Source: Fistulifera solaris (lineage: Eukaryota; Bacillariophyta; Bacillariophyceae; Naviculales; Stauroneidaceae). From it: a stretch of DNA of 64,000 nucleotides. Positions 22,483 to 31,480 of this stretch are shown piece by piece. The DNA is taken from assembly GCA_030295235.1 (NCBI GenBank), contig AP026133.1, forward strand, positions 1,178,001 through 1,242,000, in the 5' to 3' direction. The number at the start of each line of letters is the position of its first letter. Position 1 is the first letter of the stretch. The notes beneath the pieces were generated by a model. That model searched no databases and was not told where the DNA came from. It saw only the letters and a program-made list of their open reading frames with translations. The position numbers and the translations under genes are program-made.

Positions 22483-25453
22483 CTATTGTGTTCCATCATC
22501 CAACAAAGCAGACCACCGAGCATGCAATACATCCAAATCGACATATACTGGAATCCAGGCAACATAGTCGTCTCGACTGGTATAAACTTCCAAACCTTGT
22601 TGACACCACCATTCTAAGCCGTGCATGACACCATTTATGCGATCGGCTACCGCGTTGCTCCAGTGAAAAGAGCGGAATTTCGGGTTCCATGGTTCTCGAC
22701 GGGCATTAGCGACATATTGCAGTGCTGTTTTGACCACAATTCTCCAATCGACTTTCGCTGATGCGCGCCATTGCGACTCCCAGGCTTCCACAGTGAAAGG
22801 TTCCCCGCAACGATTCAAGCATTTCTCTAGCGAAACCATGTCATCATCCTGAAACAAGTATTTGTTCAACATTGCACTATCATGACATCCGTCCTTGTCA
22901 GTGGGCGCTACTTGCGTATCATGGCACGATGCTTGCAATAAATCTAAGATCTCTCGACTTTCCGACGGTAACCGGTGCAACCATTCTTGGAACTGTTCGA
23001 CAATCGCGTCATCTCCTCGCCGACAAGATTGGTGAATATCGCCTCGACTATGCCGAGCATCCACAACAACCGCCCCCGATATCGCATCCAGAATGAACAA
23101 TGAAGGAATTCCCTGTACGCCAAACTGAAGCGAAAGCTTTGACTTGAAATGGTGCAAAGCTGGTTCGAAAGGAATAGCCGCCCACGGCATTGTCGCGTAG
23201 TAATGTTGGAAGCTAGTGGCATCTCGATCGGAGCTGACAAACACAATCTCGAGTCCGTGCGATGGAAACGCTTCATTTAGGACATTATAGAATTCAATCA
23301 ACATGGGAGTGAGAGAGCGACATGCTTTACGAAAAAATCAAGATGTGAGGGGCTGGAACAAAGCGCCAGCGACGTTCATTTGATTACTTACGACCACACC
23401 AATGAGCGGAAAAGTAAAACGCAATCAATCGAGGATTTTTCCTTTGCAAGGCAGCGTCCGTCGGTATCAACTGATTCGTGTTCACCAACAGCTGGGGTCC
23501 CAATCGCTCGACGAATACATTGGTGTCCAAAGGTACTTCATACGAGAGTGATGCTGATAGTGGGTCAGGATCCAACGCCGCTGCTCCATTACTACAATCA
23601 TTCGCAGGGACCAACCAAGCGGGCAGTAACACAAATGTCGCCCATTCGTCCGAAGTGGGTAGCAATGGATACGAGCAAGCACCGATCAAATAAATCGGCG
23701 CACCGGGTTTCGTACAAAATCCCACTATTGAAGTACGCTGCCCCGAAATCGGTGACATTGATGATAAGGATGAGACAAACGATTCGAATGCTGCTTGCTT
23801 TTGAGAGAACGTAGCTGTGACTTGCTTCGCCAGGGGAAGATACGAGTCGGGCAATCGGCCTGTTACGGCGTTAGGTCGTGTTGAACGGTGGACCCGCAAT
23901 TTCAAGTCCGGCACCGTGGCAGTCGAATTCCATTGCAAGACAATGGGATCGACCGTGTCACTAATTTTCGCACAAACCGTCCATTGGGAAGCATTCGCCA
24001 ACGTTTGTCCCATCACACCAACATAGAGGATTCCTCCCTCCCAAACATGCTCGTTTTTCCAGAGCGGAAGGCGTGAATGCATGTTCATGGGATTCGTTCT
24101 GTATTCATTATTCTCGTTTAACAATTGACCATGTACCACCAATATGAGCGTCTCGTGAAGTTTATCAACAAAAGAATCCAAATGTTGCAACGAAACAAAA
24201 GATTTTGATTGCAGTATTGTACCCGTTTGTGGATCTACAACAACCGCAGATAGTTGATTCGGTATTCCCATCGCACAGGCAGCTCCTGACACAATAATGG
24301 CTCGTGTGCATTGAGCAAGCGGAGGACGCGGATGAACCGCAATAAAGGCTTGCTTGAGGAGAAGCGACGGCAAAAAGGTCTGAATGGAGTACTCCGTTGA
24401 ACATTGTAGTTGTTGATTGTTTTCGTCCTTCTTTTCTGAGTTTTCGTGTGCGTAGGATGACGCCCCAGCTTCTCCACGGGCCACTTTCCACTGCGTCGCT
24501 CCACTGATTCGCCCGTGATGATACGAACTACTTTCCTTGGCCCATTCTGTCAGTCGTTTGTAGGATGACAACAATTCCTCTTCTTCTTTCCATTGCTTTT
24601 GAATCGACTGTTTTTGTTTCACCGAGGACAGTTTACCTAATAATGTGACATTGATTTCATGAATGACATCTTGTCCTGCTTCTTCGGACGATGTAATGGC
24701 ACGACGCCTCGTCAAAAAGTCGTGAGAATCGAATTGCCGTGTATATCGAGGAGTAACATCCATTACATACGACGGTGTAATGGCAAGGATGTACGACAGT
24801 TGTTTCCCCCAACCGGCTTCATACATACTGGGTTCATTGACGACACCTTCACAACCATCTCCCATGCAATAGTAGTGATTACTCTGATCGCGATGATGAT
24901 TGGGAAAAGATGCTTCAATCCAGACATGGTCTGTCATATCCAAGATGTAGCGAGTATGATATCCGACGGCTCGACAATACAAGCCAAACAAATTCGCGTA
25001 TTCTCCGCATCGACCTTGTCGTGTCTGTAACAACGTTCGTGGGCAATTGTATCGTGGAAATGTAATGTCATTCTCACTGTCGCATACCGTGCACTGATAG
25101 ACTTCAACTCGCGAGGCTTTTCCTTGTATTTCTGGTTGCGTTTCTGGACCTCGTGTGCGAATGAATTGCACATGATCGGTCGTTTGACATTGAAGGCACA
25201 TTGGTTGATTGATCCAAGTCATCCTGCTCTTAAAGTAACGACACAATCGTTGAAAGAAGATAATGGAGTAAGATGGATGCTTGAGGGCATCGTTCTTTTC
25301 GGAGAAAGGTCCGTCATCTTTCTTCAAATCCTCCCAAGGAATAGTAGCACGACAATCAGCTAGTAATTGAGGATCTTCCCACGCTTGAACAGTTTTCAAG
25401 GCTCCTTCAATACGCCGCTTAAAATCTTCATTAATAAAGGTTGTTGCGTTCAT
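22483..25453 (-). CDS. Peptide:N-glycanase fused to a nucleoredoxin-type thioredoxin domain and a PUB-like C-terminus (two exons)
   Basis: A 967-residue protein. Its N-terminal half is a PNGase that removes N-glycans from misfolded glycoproteins during ER-associated degradation. CLQC and CTVC form the zinc site, GRCGEYANLF holds the catalytic Cys, DHVWIEA the His and VMDVTPRY the Asp. About 250 residues of unassigned sequence follow. Then comes a thioredoxin-like domain: FYFSAHWCG ends exon 1 (23392-25453) and CRSLTPMLIEFYNVL opens exon 2 (22483-23324), so splicing of the 67-bp intron creates WCGPCR. The rest resembles nucleoredoxin (VFVSSDRDATSFQHYY, GIPSLFILD). The last 100 residues (WNPKFRSFHWSNAVADRING) look like a PUB domain, which would bind p97; this is tentative. 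Start ATG 25453. Confidence 0.88.
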
Positions 25454-26201: not shown

Positions 26202-26897
26202 ATGACTTCCAACAAAGCATTTGCCGCTGTAACAGTCAAAATCATTAGTGATATTGTCTGACCGTTCTGTTTTGTCGGTTTGCGTCACCTGCAAGCCGCC
26301 AGTCAACAGACGCAAATTCCCATTGCCCTGTCGTGGGAACCTTTCTTATTGAATCCGAACATGTCGTTAGAAGGACAAGATATGGAAGAGCATCTGGTAC
26401 AAAAGTACGGTTCCAGTGCTCGACAAATGTTACACGATCCGAAAAGTCGTTTGAAACTAATGGGTGAAGCTGTAGGAATTCATTTCAATAACAATCGACG
26501 CATGGTCAATACTATTCAAGCACATCAATTAATGGAGTTTATCAAGGACAAGTACGGGAATGATAAGGCAAATGCACTCATGGAGCAATTGTACGAGCGT
26601 TACTTTGTACAAGCGCAAGATATTTCCAAGTTGGAGACCTTGGTCCAAGTAGCGAACGATGTTTCCATTTCAGGAGACGATGTGCAACGTGCGATGGTAG
26701 AAGTGCCCAGTACCTTAATTCTACAAAAAGACCGCCATGTCAAACAGAATTTGGGTGTGACCGGTGTGCCCTTTTTCATGATTTATGGGGCAGATGACGA
26801 CGAGGATGACGACGAACCTACGGTCTTTTCGGGAGCATATCCGATTTCCTTTATTGCCGATTTACTGCAGAAAGCATCCAAAGCTTCGACGAAATAA
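26202..26897 (+). CDS. DsbA/FrnE-family thioredoxin-fold oxidoreductase, probable selenoprotein (UxxC)
   Basis: A 231-residue protein of the DsbA/2-hydroxychromene-2-carboxylate isomerase (FrnE) family; members exchange disulfides or act as glutathione-dependent isomerases. From the ATG at 26202 the frame reads MTSNKAFAAVTVKIISDIV, then TGA at 26259-26261, then PFCFVGLRHLQ, and stays open to TAA at 26895. In FrnE proteins this place is DxxCPWCxxG, so the TGA replaces the first active-site Cys exactly and the motif becomes U-P-F-C. The later family features are intact: WEPFLLNP, and LGVTGVPFFMI with the cis-Pro loop. No frameshift is involved, and the coding on both sides is in one frame. A SECIS-like hairpin follows the gene. 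The alternatives are a TGC-to-TGA error or a nonsense mutation. Confidence 0.85.
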
Positions 26898-27821
26898 GTG
26901 TATTCCGTCAAGGGTTTATCTACTGTTGTTCTTGTAAATTCACGAAACGAAAAAAAGAAGGATGGGTCCCTCTGTGAATGACCAGCGTCAACAAGATGCT
27001 GTGAACCGACAGAGTCTTTCTTGAAGCGCGTGTTGTGATTTCAATGGTGATAAGCTAGTAATATAGATACATTTGGTCTTAGAACTAGTACTGCAAAGTC
27101 CGAATGATTACAGTCGCATTTGTCCGTGTCGAATTCTTGACATCGCCGTCAACTAATCTATCAGCCCGATGAAAGACTCGATTCTTACAATGACAGTCTG
27201 AGAACAGCTGGAGTATGAAGCATGATTGCGATTGTAGACTCGTAGCACCATCTCAGCGATTACTCGAGTGTGTACACGAAAGACATCCACTGAATCATCT
27301 TGTGAACCGAAAACACGCAAATTCTTCCTTCAACCACCGTATTTCAGACTGCACTACAAGATTAAATTCCTTTGACCAAGCTGTCGGTACATTAGTATGT
27401 TGTGCCAAATAGATGCTGTCGACTTTGCGTGTCTTCACTGGGCCATTTTCTTGGCAAAGCAAAAAAGTCGGAACAAACTTTTTTGGATAATTGTCGTCAA
27501 TCGAAAAGAGGGATTTTCAAGAAGATGAAGCATCCAACAAACAAATACGGAGTAAGTTGACATGCAAATTGTGAGAAAAACTGCCCCCATGTCGCCTAAG
27601 TAAATATGCAACGGTGACTATCCGGTACTCCATTGCCTTAATTGCCCGCCAGTTTGGGCCGTTGCAATAGATTTCTATATAAGTGGATAGTGGAGAGCTT
27701 TATTCATCAGCGACACAAATTTCTCGCACCAACACACGCCAACGCGAAACGCGAAATCACCACATTTTCAAAAGCCATACCAATCGAAGTAATCTTCAAA
27801 GGAAATGAAGGGAGAAGAACG
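26898..27821. other. Intergenic region
   Basis: Besides the SECIS-like hairpin, no gene was recognised. TATATAAG near 27676 lies about 145 bp upstream of the next start and is a plausible TATA element. TACGGAGTA occurs at 27547. Confidence 0.45.
26970..27014 (+). promoter_or_regulatory. Candidate SECIS element in the 3' UTR of the DsbA-type gene
   Basis: A hairpin 73 nt after the stop codon. Helix I is CTCTGT (26970-26975) with ACAGAG (27009-27014). The 5' quartet ATGA (26978-26981) faces TGAA (27002-27005), allowing the tandem G.A pairs of a SECIS core. Helix II is CAGCGTC (26983-26989) with GATGCTG (26995-27001), seven pairs including one G.U. The apical loop AACAA starts with the expected AA. 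The gap of 8 nt from quartet to AA is shorter than usual, so confidence is moderate. Confidence 0.55.
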
Positions 27822-29253
27822 ATGAGATTTCAAAATATTACAAAACTTATCGTTACATTTGGATTAATATGCATGCTTTCGTCTCCAGGCGTCTTGGCTA
27901 CCCAACAAACGATCAATCGTGAACTCGATCCGGATGATACGGAGCGATTTCTGTATTCTGTGTCACAAGCGATCCAAGCGCCAGGGACGGTCGATTTATC
28001 GCAACTTGTGTTCTCCAATATGAATCGAAATCCATATTATTACTCGCAAGCGATCGATGACGCCTACAACGAGAATGAAAACAACAACGAGGGCGACCAA
28101 TCCAGTGAAACGACGGTCGAAGTGGCGTTGCTCTATTGTGGATCCGCAGCGACGCAAAGTAGCGGCAACAATTCTATCTGTAACTTGCAAAAGCTGGGAA
28201 TTGGCAAATATTCTGAAGAAGATGGCACCCATTACCGCTGCTGTACTGCGGATGCCATAAATGCGGGGGTGTGCGCGGAAGAAGGGCGTTTAGTGGTCGA
28301 CGATACTGTATTTTCGGGCCAATGGTTCGAAGTCGTTTCAAAAAGCAACAATGATAATACCTACGCCATCGATGACCCTATTCGTTTTGTGGAACAGTCT
28401 GGCATTTATATGGTGGTCCTAGCGAACTGCAATCAGCACGGCATTCCGATCTTGACCAAGGGCGACCTAAGATTTCGATCACGATACGGATACTTGCCAA
28501 GCAGTGACTGGAAAGTTTCATGGATCGCACATGCCTTTACTTTCATGGCTGCAAGTATACTTTCTTGGCTCTGTCGACGGAATGTTCGTCGGAGCATTGA
28601 CACAGTCCAAATCAGTGCGGTAGCAATGGCATCCGTTCACAGTATCATGCTGAGTCTGTATTATTTGAAATACAATATGACAGGAGTAAGACCCGATACT
28701 CTATATCATATGTATCTTATCTTCAATGCCTTAACCTTGGGTCTGGTCAACGCATTCATGGTGCTCGCTGCTTTTGGATGGCGCTGTCTGGAAAAGGTGT
28801 ATACATCGATTCCCATTCACAGTATCTGGCTGTTTGGAGGCACCTGTACCGTTATTCTCTGCCTATTGCCCATCTCGGGCGATCACTTCCCTGGTTGGTG
28901 AGTTTCTCCGAGTAGGTTGCGCTTCTTGGGCCCTTCAAGTAAACATGACAACATTACACAAATTACGTCACACGGATGAAGAAATGTTCCGTCGGTGGGC
29001 CTTCATGCGGGCACTATTTGTTTTGTCCATTTGCCTTAGCTGTTTAGTTTGCTTTTTCTATTTGTTTTTGGCCAATAAAAGTGATGCCGTGCAACAATGT
29101 TTTCTCACCCTACAGCAGCTCATGAACTTGACTATGCTTGTGACGCTATGGTATCTAATCCGACCTTATAATGAAGCGCTCCTCCTTGGAAAGAATGGTG
29201 TGGATAGCAATAGTCAAGAAAGCGATTGTTACAAAAGAGGAATAGATCCTTAA
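27822..29253 (+). CDS. Lung7TM/GOST-family seven-transmembrane protein, paralogue 1 (one apparent frameshift)
   Basis: A member of the Golgi-dynamics/Lung7TM membrane protein family (PF06814-like), involved in trafficking or signalling; the ligand is unknown. The signal peptide starts at MRFQNITKLIVTFGLICMLS. The lumenal domain contains paired Cys (YRCCTADA) and ends in VVLANCN, then RFRSRYGYLPSSDW, the conserved start of the membrane region. Several hydrophobic helices follow. The frame stops at 28899, but the alignable C-terminal helices continue in another frame to 29253. Comparison with the neighbouring paralogue places the break at the CCC of 28890-28892 (two bases missing or one extra). 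It forms a tail-to-tail pair with the gene at 29363. The upstream in-frame extension to 27642 has no signal-like start. Confidence 0.78.
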
Positions 29254-29362: not shown

Positions 29363-30748
29363 TCAAGCAGACAAATCGCTTGCGTCCGAGTCTTCTTCCT
29401 CTTGGCGTGAAAGAGTCACTACAGGATCTTCAAAGTCCTTGAGTAAAGGCTCACTCTGTGGTCTTAGTATGATTCCAACGGATAGAATCACACAAACAAA
29501 TACGGATTGACGAATTGTGTAAACACCACGATGCAGAGTCTCGATGTCATCGGCATTGTTGCTCTTGCTCCATTTGATGCAGTAGACGATTAGTAAACCG
29601 ACATGAAGCAAAAGCGAGAAAGCGAACACACCCCGTAGCAAAGTAAAGCGGCTCATCTTCTCCTTGTCGAGTAGCTTGAACCGATCGATCATCCTTGTGG
29701 TTGCTTTGACCGCCCATACAAGAAACATGAATCCTAACACTTGACCTACCACCGCTGGGTGTCGAAGGCTGGGAATAAGAAGGATGAGAGTGTACAACGC
29801 TCCCAACGAACAGATTGTATACACTGGAATCAGGTTGGTGTTGTCGTCGTGTTGGTCCCAACCGAAAGAGATTAATAACATGAGTGTATTCCCGACTCCG
29901 TACTTGCAGCCGTGGAGAAACTCACGAATCTCCGTGATTATCGCCGGTTCAACGCCTGATACATTAGCGACGATGAAGCATAAGCTCTGCATAAAACTTT
30001 CAAGGAATGCAAGCAACAGTGTTGCACTGATGACATGATCTGAAAGCTTGGAACGACGCTGTTGAAGAAACCAGGCAAGGGCTCCTCCTATGATTAGCGT
30101 CATCGCATGAGTGACCCAGGAAAATCGCCATGAGACCACAGTAAGATATCCATAGCTCGACTTGAAGCCCAAATAACCTTTGACGCTGATCGGATACTCT
30201 TCGTTGCAATTTGCAAAAAGCACTGCGCTCGAGCCGGATCCCGACGGGTAAACGAACTTCGTGTCCAAATATCCCGAGTTTCCTGGAGATACTTCCACGT
30301 AAACCAATTGACCGTCAAAGTAGTCGTTTAAAATCAATCGTCCTTGTTCTTCACAAGCTCCAGCTGCCAATGCCTCTGCCGTGCAACATATATAGAGGTT
30401 GTTGTTGATTTGTTCACCAATCCCACTGTACTGCTGCAAGCAGGTCGCCTTTTCGAGATCTCCACATGATAAGACAACAGCTTCGATTAAAATGCTCGCG
30501 TCTTGATTATAAGTGTTTCCGCCGTCGTCAGTTTCATTGACTGCGTCGTCGGTGCCGTAGAATGCAGCATCGTCGTTGTTTGAGTCAACGACGGCAAAGA
30601 TGAGATGTCGGAAGTCGATTCGTCCTGGTACCGTTATTGTTTCTGCTTCGATAAAATAGTCTTCGTAAGGTTTTAAAATGACGTCCATCTTATGCTTCGT
30701 CGCGGAGACTACACACATCAAAAGCCAGATAAGAAAGAATCGCGTCAT
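29363..30748 (-). CDS. Lung7TM/GOST-family seven-transmembrane protein, paralogue 2
   Basis: An intact paralogue of the gene at 27822, on the opposite strand and separated by only about 110 bp. The start MTRFFLIWLLMCVVSATKH gives a signal peptide. Two earlier in-frame Met codons (to 30868) would place it internally. The lumenal domain shares the layout of paralogue 1 (VPGRIDFRHLIFAVVDS, LYICCTAEALAAGACEEQGR, VLFANCN, KSSYGYLTVVSWRFSW). About seven hydrophobic helices follow, and the cytosolic tail is acidic (EEEDSDASDLSA). The sequences are clearly related but well diverged, so the inverted duplication is not recent. Probably a Golgi or endosomal membrane protein. Confidence 0.82.
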   Translation of the reverse strand: MTRFFLIWLLMCVVSATKHKMDVILKPYEDYFIEAETITVPGRIDFRHLIFAVVDSNNDDAAFYGTDDAVNETDDGGNTYNQDASILIEAVVLSCGDLEKATCLQQYSGIGEQINNNLYICCTAEALAAGACEEQGRLILNDYFDGQLVYVEVSPGNSGYLDTKFVYPSGSGSSAVLFANCNEEYPISVKGYLGFKSSYGYLTVVSWRFSWVTHAMTLIIGGALAWFLQQRRSKLSDHVISATLLLAFLESFMQSLCFIVANVSGVEPAIITEIREFLHGCKYGVGNTLMLLISFGWDQHDDNTNLIPVYTICSLGALYTLILLIPSLRHPAVVGQVLGFMFLVWAVKATTRMIDRFKLLDKEKMSRFTLLRGVFAFSLLLHVGLLIVYCIKWSKSNNADDIETLHRGVYTIRQSVFVCVILSVGIILRPQSEPLLKDFEDPVVTLSRQEEEDSDASDLSA

Positions 30749-31480
30749 GGCGCTTCCAGCTCCGCTCATTTGACGTACAATTGAACTGGTGGGGGATGAG
30801 TTGACGACTTGCGTGAGTGCTTGTGAGTTTTCTTTGAAGCAATCCTTGGATCCTGTGAGAGTGCCCACTTTTCTCCAAATTCGTACGATTTCTTCTAACT
30901 TCGGTTGGGAATAAAGCCAACTGTTTCAATCGGCCGTTGTTTTGATGAAAACGGATGTTGATCCGTTGGTTTTTCATCGTTTGAACCTTGCCGAATGAGA
31001 TGCGTACTTCGTCCTACATTCCGACTGTCACAAAATCGCCTTATGTAATCGAGTATTTAGAAGGATGCATTTAAAGGGTTAGTGCCGGTCATTTCAGCAC
31101 AACTTATTTGGAGTACCGGATAATTATTCAACGGTTAGGTCTTTCCGTTCAGAAAACCTCACACATTCTACAGTTTCTTTCTCACATCAAGATCAAGCCT
31201 CATCGACTGTCAAGTGTCATTAAGGAATGGTCCAAATCAAGGCAAAGAATTGAAGCCCAAACGAACAAACGAAAACTATTCAGCGAAGCAAGATATCGCG
31301 AGACATTTCGTTCCGGCTCTAATCTCAAGGTGCTACTTTCATGGGGAGCACGATCGTGATTTATAAGAAGCTGACAAAAAGATGCTCAAACGGTACGCGT
31401 CAGACGGTATTCTGTCCCACTTCAGATTGTACAAGCCACAACAACCAACAAATCGAAACGCTCCACACTCCACATAGCTA

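Follow-up and report, generated by a model that had tools for sequence, protein, structure and literature searches.

An In-Frame UGA Probably Read as Selenocysteine in a DsbA/FrnE-Family Gene of the Diatom Fistulifera solaris, with a Candidate SECIS Element of Short Helix II

The FrnE1 Locus

The window, i.e., the whole stretch of Fistulifera solaris DNA that was analyzed, is 64 kb long. It carries FrnE1, the predicted product of which is a DsbA/FrnE-family protein. The features of the gene and of its 3′ flank, in window coordinates, are as follows.

26202..26897, plus strand: coding sequence of the predicted DsbA/FrnE-family selenoprotein FrnE1, 231 residues with Sec20, stop codon TAA at 26895–26897
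26259..26261, plus strand: in-frame TGA, codon 20, probably read as Sec, the first residue of UPFC; TGA in both gene copies, Cys in 4/4 bacterial relatives aligned
26262..26270, plus strand: P-F-C, the remainder of UPFC, the predicted resolving Cys being residue 23 (from alignment)
26970..27014, plus strand: probable SECIS element with a short helix II, consisting of stem I, an ATGA/TGAA core, a 7-bp helix II and apical AACAA (from the fold and a 45-nt identical run)
26978..26981, plus strand: putative 5′ SECIS core ATGA, with GA before and C after, as in most other aligned hairpins of the genome
27002..27005, plus strand: putative 3′ SECIS core TGAA

Re-translation bore out the original prediction of a single frame, from the ATG at 26202 to the TAA, in which the TGA at codon 20 is the sole internal stop. 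The predicted protein starts MTSNKAFAAVTVKIISDIV-U-PFCFVG, the immediate context of codon 20 being SDIV-U-PFCFVG. By eye, no obvious signal peptide is found in the first 12 residues; that the protein has a cytosolic role is a guess.

The neighboring genes were assigned by eye. A divergent neighbor on the minus strand (22483–25453) resembles a transglutaminase/PNGase-like protein and seems to continue, via a short intron at about 23320–23390, into a WCGPC domain of nucleoredoxin type. Next to FrnE1, two predicted membrane proteins that resemble each other (27642–29253 and 29363–30868) are encoded in convergent orientation.

Family and Active Site

With Cys written for Sec, FrnE1 scores 92.8 bits against the Pfam DSBA profile PF01323, the curated cut-off of which is 25.6. 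Among solved structures, the best sequence match found by phmmer is FrnE, 5cnw/5cp1 (E 8.1e-20); we take 5cnw to be the FrnE of Deinococcus radiodurans. The 5cnw alignment spans residues 10–200, sets UPFC opposite CPWC and includes a TGVPFF segment common to both proteins. That is, residue 20 is aligned with the first Cys of the CPWC of FrnE, the position to which the TGA had been assigned from the motif CPxC.

The bacterial relatives aligned are L051, the one match among those listed in a pattern scan of prokaryote contigs, and L052–L054, three of the 12 listed out of 223 plasmid records; all four have Cys in the active-site column, in the motifs CPFC or CPWC. L051 reads SDIVCPFCFIG where FrnE1 reads SDIVUPFCFVG. 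Across seven sequences (two FrnE1, one FrnE2 as described below, and the four bacterial proteins), the active-site column is invariant with Sec written as Cys. The column of Pro190 is likewise invariant, and this residue is presumably the conserved cis-Pro opposite the active site in the predicted geometry.

A six-frame search of the genome with PF01323 matched the two FrnE1 genes alone, a search that missed the intron-split FrnE2 pair and could miss further split genes likewise. A tblastn search with FrnE1 finds four FrnE-like loci in the genome, and TGA is at the catalytic position in all four.

The Second Copy and Selection

Fistulifera solaris is described as an allodiploid diatom (PMC5935921), and RNP editing has been reported in it (PMC13276009). 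The genome analyzed comprises 51.7 Mb in 61 contigs, and the contigs are paired. The window gene lies on C8, and a diverged second copy of FrnE1 lies on C7. The two proteins are 95% identical, and the TGA is at the same codon in both genes. The copies differ at 41 synonymous and 11 nonsynonymous positions, giving a dS of 0.355, a dN of 0.020 and a dN/dS of 0.058 by our own Nei–Gojobori count, in which the TGA codon was omitted. The FrnE1 pair is under strong purifying selection. In codons 5–29 (26214–26288), which flank the UGA, the copies are identical in spite of this dS; the identity could be due to chance or to a local recoding signal.

The 3′ flanks of the copies align over 889 positions, 723 of them identical. 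No identical run is longer than the 45 nt at 26973–27017, which take in the core, helix II and the apical loop together with the 3′ arm of stem I. Only half of the 5′ arm (26970–26975) falls within this run, and that arm differs in the C7 copy. A second conserved block is found at 27126–27190, with identical runs of 16 and 20 nt, the latter at 27164–27183. By eye, this block has an AGACT/AGTCT hairpin, the apical part of which differs between the copies and fits no SECIS in both.

These comparisons bear on two ways in which the TGA might not encode an amino acid of the working protein. First, a Cys codon may have turned into a stop, by pseudogene decay or by sequencing error, and a stop at residue 20 would indeed abolish the protein. 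However, the same TGA is present in the second, diverged copy, the dN/dS over the frame is low, and the core, helix II and loop of the hairpin lie in the 45-nt run, the longest that the 3′ flanks share; we regard this explanation as highly improbable. Second, translation may start downstream of the UGA, where the frame is open from 26280 to the stop, to yield a shortened DsbA-fold protein that lacks the catalytic residue. The chance of this is very slim, as the codons before the UGA match FrnE from residue 10, and codons 5–29 are identical between the copies while the sequence before the ATG aligns poorly (by eye).

Genetic Code and Selenocysteine Machinery

The genome has six tRNA-Sec loci over the Rfam cut-off, and the anticodon is TCA in all four of the loci fetched. 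Close tandem pairs of tRNA-Sec are seen at C27:330126–330416 and C29:316339–316634, with starts 205 and 210 nt apart, respectively. SepSecS is found on C9 and C10 (best score 264.8 bits). SelD is found on C16, where a match with two TGA codons scores 128.3 bits, just over the cut-off of 125. The controls for these searches are not clean: among 14 control prokaryotes, five are also over the cut-off for tRNA-Sec, three for SepSecS and two for SelD. In addition, TGA is present at the expected Sec codon in other genes of the genome, namely the GPx and SelT pairs, SelM-like genes and the TrxR pair.

TGA ends 13 of the 28 long frames in the window (at least 250 codons, stop to stop; these are open frames rather than proven genes). 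Thus, TGA is not generally reassigned. A changed code or general read-through, by which the UGA would be read as another amino acid, is extremely unlikely: no evidence in its support was found, it is at odds with the ordinary use of TGA as a stop in those frames, and the UGA-reading tRNA seen is tRNA-Sec.

The Hairpin Downstream of FrnE1

The original prediction also placed a SECIS-like hairpin downstream of the stop, with an ATGA/TGAA core, a 7-bp helix and an apical AA, and such a hairpin is found at 26970–27014. The distance from the stop codon to stem I is 72 nt, rather than the 73 nt given earlier. Stem I pairs 26970–26975 with 27009–27014 (CTCTGT/ACAGAG). Helix II pairs 26983–26989 with 26995–27001, in 7 bp that include one G-U. 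The apical loop is AACAA (26990–26994), so that the AA lies 8 nt past the quartet. The window hairpin has a minimum free energy of −17.9 kcal/mol (z −3.83), and none of 200 shuffles is as low. The C7 hairpin, in which stem I is weaker, has a minimum free energy of −10.8 (z −1.15; 29 of 200 shuffles as low). Helix II is without substitution between the FrnE1 copies, and covariation is therefore uninformative there.

A descriptor of the element (RATGA, at least 6 bp, GA[AG]), fixed after the FrnE1 element and its relatives had been seen, has three matches on both strands of the window, the FrnE1 hairpin included. The same descriptor gives 0.0023 hits per kb in mononucleotide-shuffled blocks of the window, so that the matches exceed what chance would give.

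How does the hairpin compare with a canonical SECIS? It has an ATGA/NGAN core under a helix, 3′ of the stop. It lacks an unpaired AA 10–13 nt past the quartet, the AA being at 8 nt; an AA at 10–13 nt is required by the SECISearch rule as given in the accessible text of PMC2375036. A simplified form of this rule, allowing up to two mismatches in the helix, finds nothing in the 700 nt downstream of either FrnE1 copy. Corroboration by a SECIS covariance model, which the original prediction proposed as a check, was not obtained: the Rfam SECIS model, RF00031, has no match in the window or in the FrnE1 3′ region. The same model is silent across the whole genome, although GPx, SelT and TrxR genes have TGA at the Sec codon, so its negative result carries little weight. 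A covariance model built here from eight non-FrnE selenoprotein hairpins, R1, was run on the window at E ≤ 10; it matched eight other places, and the FrnE1 hairpin was absent. R1 penalizes the 5-nt loop of FrnE1, as the loops on which it was trained are long.

Short-Helix Hairpins of Other Selenoprotein Genes

Nine selenoprotein genes or gene pairs of the genome were examined, and six have a 3′ hairpin with GAATGA(C/T) and a helix II of 6–8 bp, followed directly by an apical AA in three. The six are FrnE1, GPx, SelT, SelM-like, TrxR and FrnE2, and their common form, defined in the present analysis after the hairpins had been seen, is GAATGA(C/T), one mismatch, a 6–8 bp helix II and NGA. In GPx, SelT (CTSU), SelM-like b and TrxR (which ends GCUG), TGA is at the expected Sec codon in both copies, and the GAATGA(C/T) hairpin, with one mismatch and 6–8 bp, is 3′ of the gene in both copies. 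FrnE1 shares with the other selenoprotein hairpins GAATGAC, the mismatch after the core and the 6–8 bp helix.

The spacing rules give the following. An AA at 10–13 nt with up to two mismatches yields an element aligned in both copies for one of the six pairs, SelM-like b; the element that fits is a second hairpin of that gene, and it fits a 6-nt reading too. In TrxR, the 10–13 nt rule gives an unaligned match in one copy. A spacing of 6–9 nt with no mismatch yields an aligned element for three of the six pairs (FrnE1, SelT and SelM-like b). The GPx, TrxR and FrnE2 hairpins have no AA directly after the helix. To summarize, a short helix is common among the selenoprotein hairpins of this genome, and the apical AA is not universal. 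The quartet-to-AA distance of FrnE1, flagged from the start as atypical, is indeed outside 10–13 nt; within this genome, though, it is not atypical, since short spacing is common to other hairpins.

Several individual cases deserve description. The SelM-like pair (L027 and L028, minus strand) has two tandem SECIS-like hairpins, at about 1126 and 934 in one copy and 1125 and 919 in the other, conserved in both. The TrxR pair (L055 and L057, minus strand) has a GAATGAC hairpin in the 3′ flank in which TT, rather than AA, comes after the short helix; these hairpins, each with two G-U pairs, were picked out by eye from the alignment of the 3′ flanks, and the scan listed none. In the 3′ scan, the SelM-a pair (L026/L029) had no hairpin over the threshold. 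No hairpin was listed downstream of the matched part of SelD. The SelU-like L032 has one hairpin, with a 9-bp helix and in a single copy, and was not used as a comparable element. A TGA in the MsrA gene L042 was rejected as a Sec codon: it lies in GG/GTGAGT, likely an intron donor, and the active site reads GCFW.

A covariation count over 11 hairpins finds 66 of 66 cells paired and a score of 1.461, compared with 0.292 on average in shuffles, but little rests on it here, as the scan had selected the hairpins for their pairing and the loops were padded with N. The count omits three of the 14 hairpins, i.e., both of TrxR and that of FrnE2 in L004, in which one base is bulged.

These hairpins are also relevant to the possibility that the UGA is recoded but that 26970–27014 is some other 3′ element, the true SECIS being elsewhere. 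The 8-nt spacing and the further conserved blocks downstream, such as the 20-nt run at 27164–27183, speak for it. On the other hand, the simplified 10–13 nt rule comes up empty downstream of both copies, and GAATGAC, the mismatch and the 6–8 bp helix recur in other selenoprotein genes. A SECIS elsewhere is thus improbable, and the hairpin at 26970–27014 is very probably the SECIS of FrnE1.

The FrnE2 Pair

The two remaining FrnE-like loci, L003 on C7 and L004 on C8, form a second pair, FrnE2, which matches the FrnE1 protein at 32% (tblastn). The TGA at the catalytic position is found as follows.

1415..1417 of L003: in-frame TGA, spliced to UPNG (predicted)
1421..1423 of L004: in-frame TGA, spliced to UPNG (predicted)

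The first exon ends ...SDTM-TGA-CCC-AAC-G; the introns that come next measure 74 and 68 nt and have GT/AG ends. The splice sites are predictions read from the sequence, and the spliced frame reads U-P-N-G-YIGKK in both copies. The L004 protein, its U written as Cys, reaches 31.2 bits against PF01323 (cut-off 25.6). Its U is aligned with the first Cys of FrnE, and Gly takes the place of the second Cys.

Downstream of the stop, L003 and L004 each carry a GAATGA(C/T) hairpin; the scan listed that of L003 alone. If an extra A of L004 is read as a bulge, one pair is changed on both sides between the two hairpins, C-G versus U-A (by eye). The fold z-scores of these hairpins are weak (−1.38 and −0.47).

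Interpretation

We propose that FrnE1, a nuclear gene, is almost certainly intact and encodes a DsbA/FrnE thiol-disulfide oxidoreductase, with the UGA at codon 20 read as Sec and the hairpin at 26970–27014 very probably serving as the SECIS. The presence of the same TGA in a diverged copy, the dN/dS of 0.058, the conserved hairpin, the finding of tRNA-Sec, SepSecS and other selenoproteins, and the use of TGA as an ordinary stop elsewhere argue for a selenoprotein gene rather than a pseudogene, and so uphold the original prediction. Both copies of FrnE1 appear to have been retained as genes for a functional selenoenzyme. Automatic annotation would probably label FrnE1 truncated or a pseudogene.

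A likely mechanism is as follows. The hairpin, as part of the transcript, would recruit the machinery for SECIS binding and Sec elongation. Sec-tRNA(UCA) would then be brought to the UGA at 26259–26261, inserting Sec in place of termination. In the protein, UPFC would sit in a thioredoxin fold, where Sec20 is predicted to attack disulfides and Cys23 to resolve.

The length of helix II is thought to act as a ruler for the insertion machinery. A broader proposal, to which we give even odds, is that a lineage-specific SECIS operates here across unrelated selenoprotein families, with a GAAUGA(C/U) core, a helix II of 6–8 bp (7–8 nt from the quartet to the apical loop, versus 10–13) and an optional apical AA. 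On this proposal, the FrnE family as found is all Sec-based, one pair being reduced to a single-Sec UPNG. If it is true, such elements would be missed by standard SECIS searches, and the SECIS-binding machinery would read a shorter ruler. Should the short-helix form hold, fixed-spacing searches may undercount selenoproteins in such diatoms, and a comparison of diatom with animal components could put the helix II ruler to the test. A literature search listed no title and no opening of an abstract that concerned diatom SECIS elements with a short helix II, supplements and most subscription journals being outside its scope.

Comparison with Known Systems

The FrnE of Deinococcus radiodurans (5cnw) has the same active-site position as FrnE1 and the TGVPFF segment. 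It differs in being bacterial, with Cys in a CPWC motif and no recoding.

The expectation that Sec-containing DsbA/FrnE proteins occur in algae agrees with the accessible text of three reports. PMC2874816 describes Sec-containing DsbA in Ciona (sea squirts), amphioxus and Micromonas. Like FrnE1, these proteins are DsbA-like and have Sec for the upstream Cys of CXXC, and a SECIS is described for the three animal genes. They are of another lineage, and the two Ciona SECIS elements are of form II, with a minihelix, whereas the FrnE1 hairpin combines a short helix with an apical loop of 5 nt. PMC6627142 reports Sec FrnE in Mamiellophyceae, and PMC7539508 counts DSBA as one of the Sec proteins with the widest distribution in algae; both are of the same Sec-containing family as FrnE1. 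FrnE (DsbA) is also a family of SelenoDB 2.0 (PMC3965025). For diatoms, PMC7539508 gives 20–44 selenoprotein genes, and its main text mentions F. solaris once, for PDI_e. The T. pseudonana selenoprotein list, in the accessible text of PMC2375036, names no DsbA.

The FrnE1 hairpin resembles the canonical eukaryotic SECIS (RF00031, and the rule in the accessible text of PMC2375036) in its ATGA/NGAN core, helix II, apical adenines and location 3′ of the stop. It differs in having 8 rather than 10–13 nt from the quartet to the AA, in its 7-bp helix II and in the lack of a match to RF00031. The enzyme type, a Sec-containing DsbA/FrnE, is thus already known in algae; the spacing of the putative short-helix SECIS is the less expected part.
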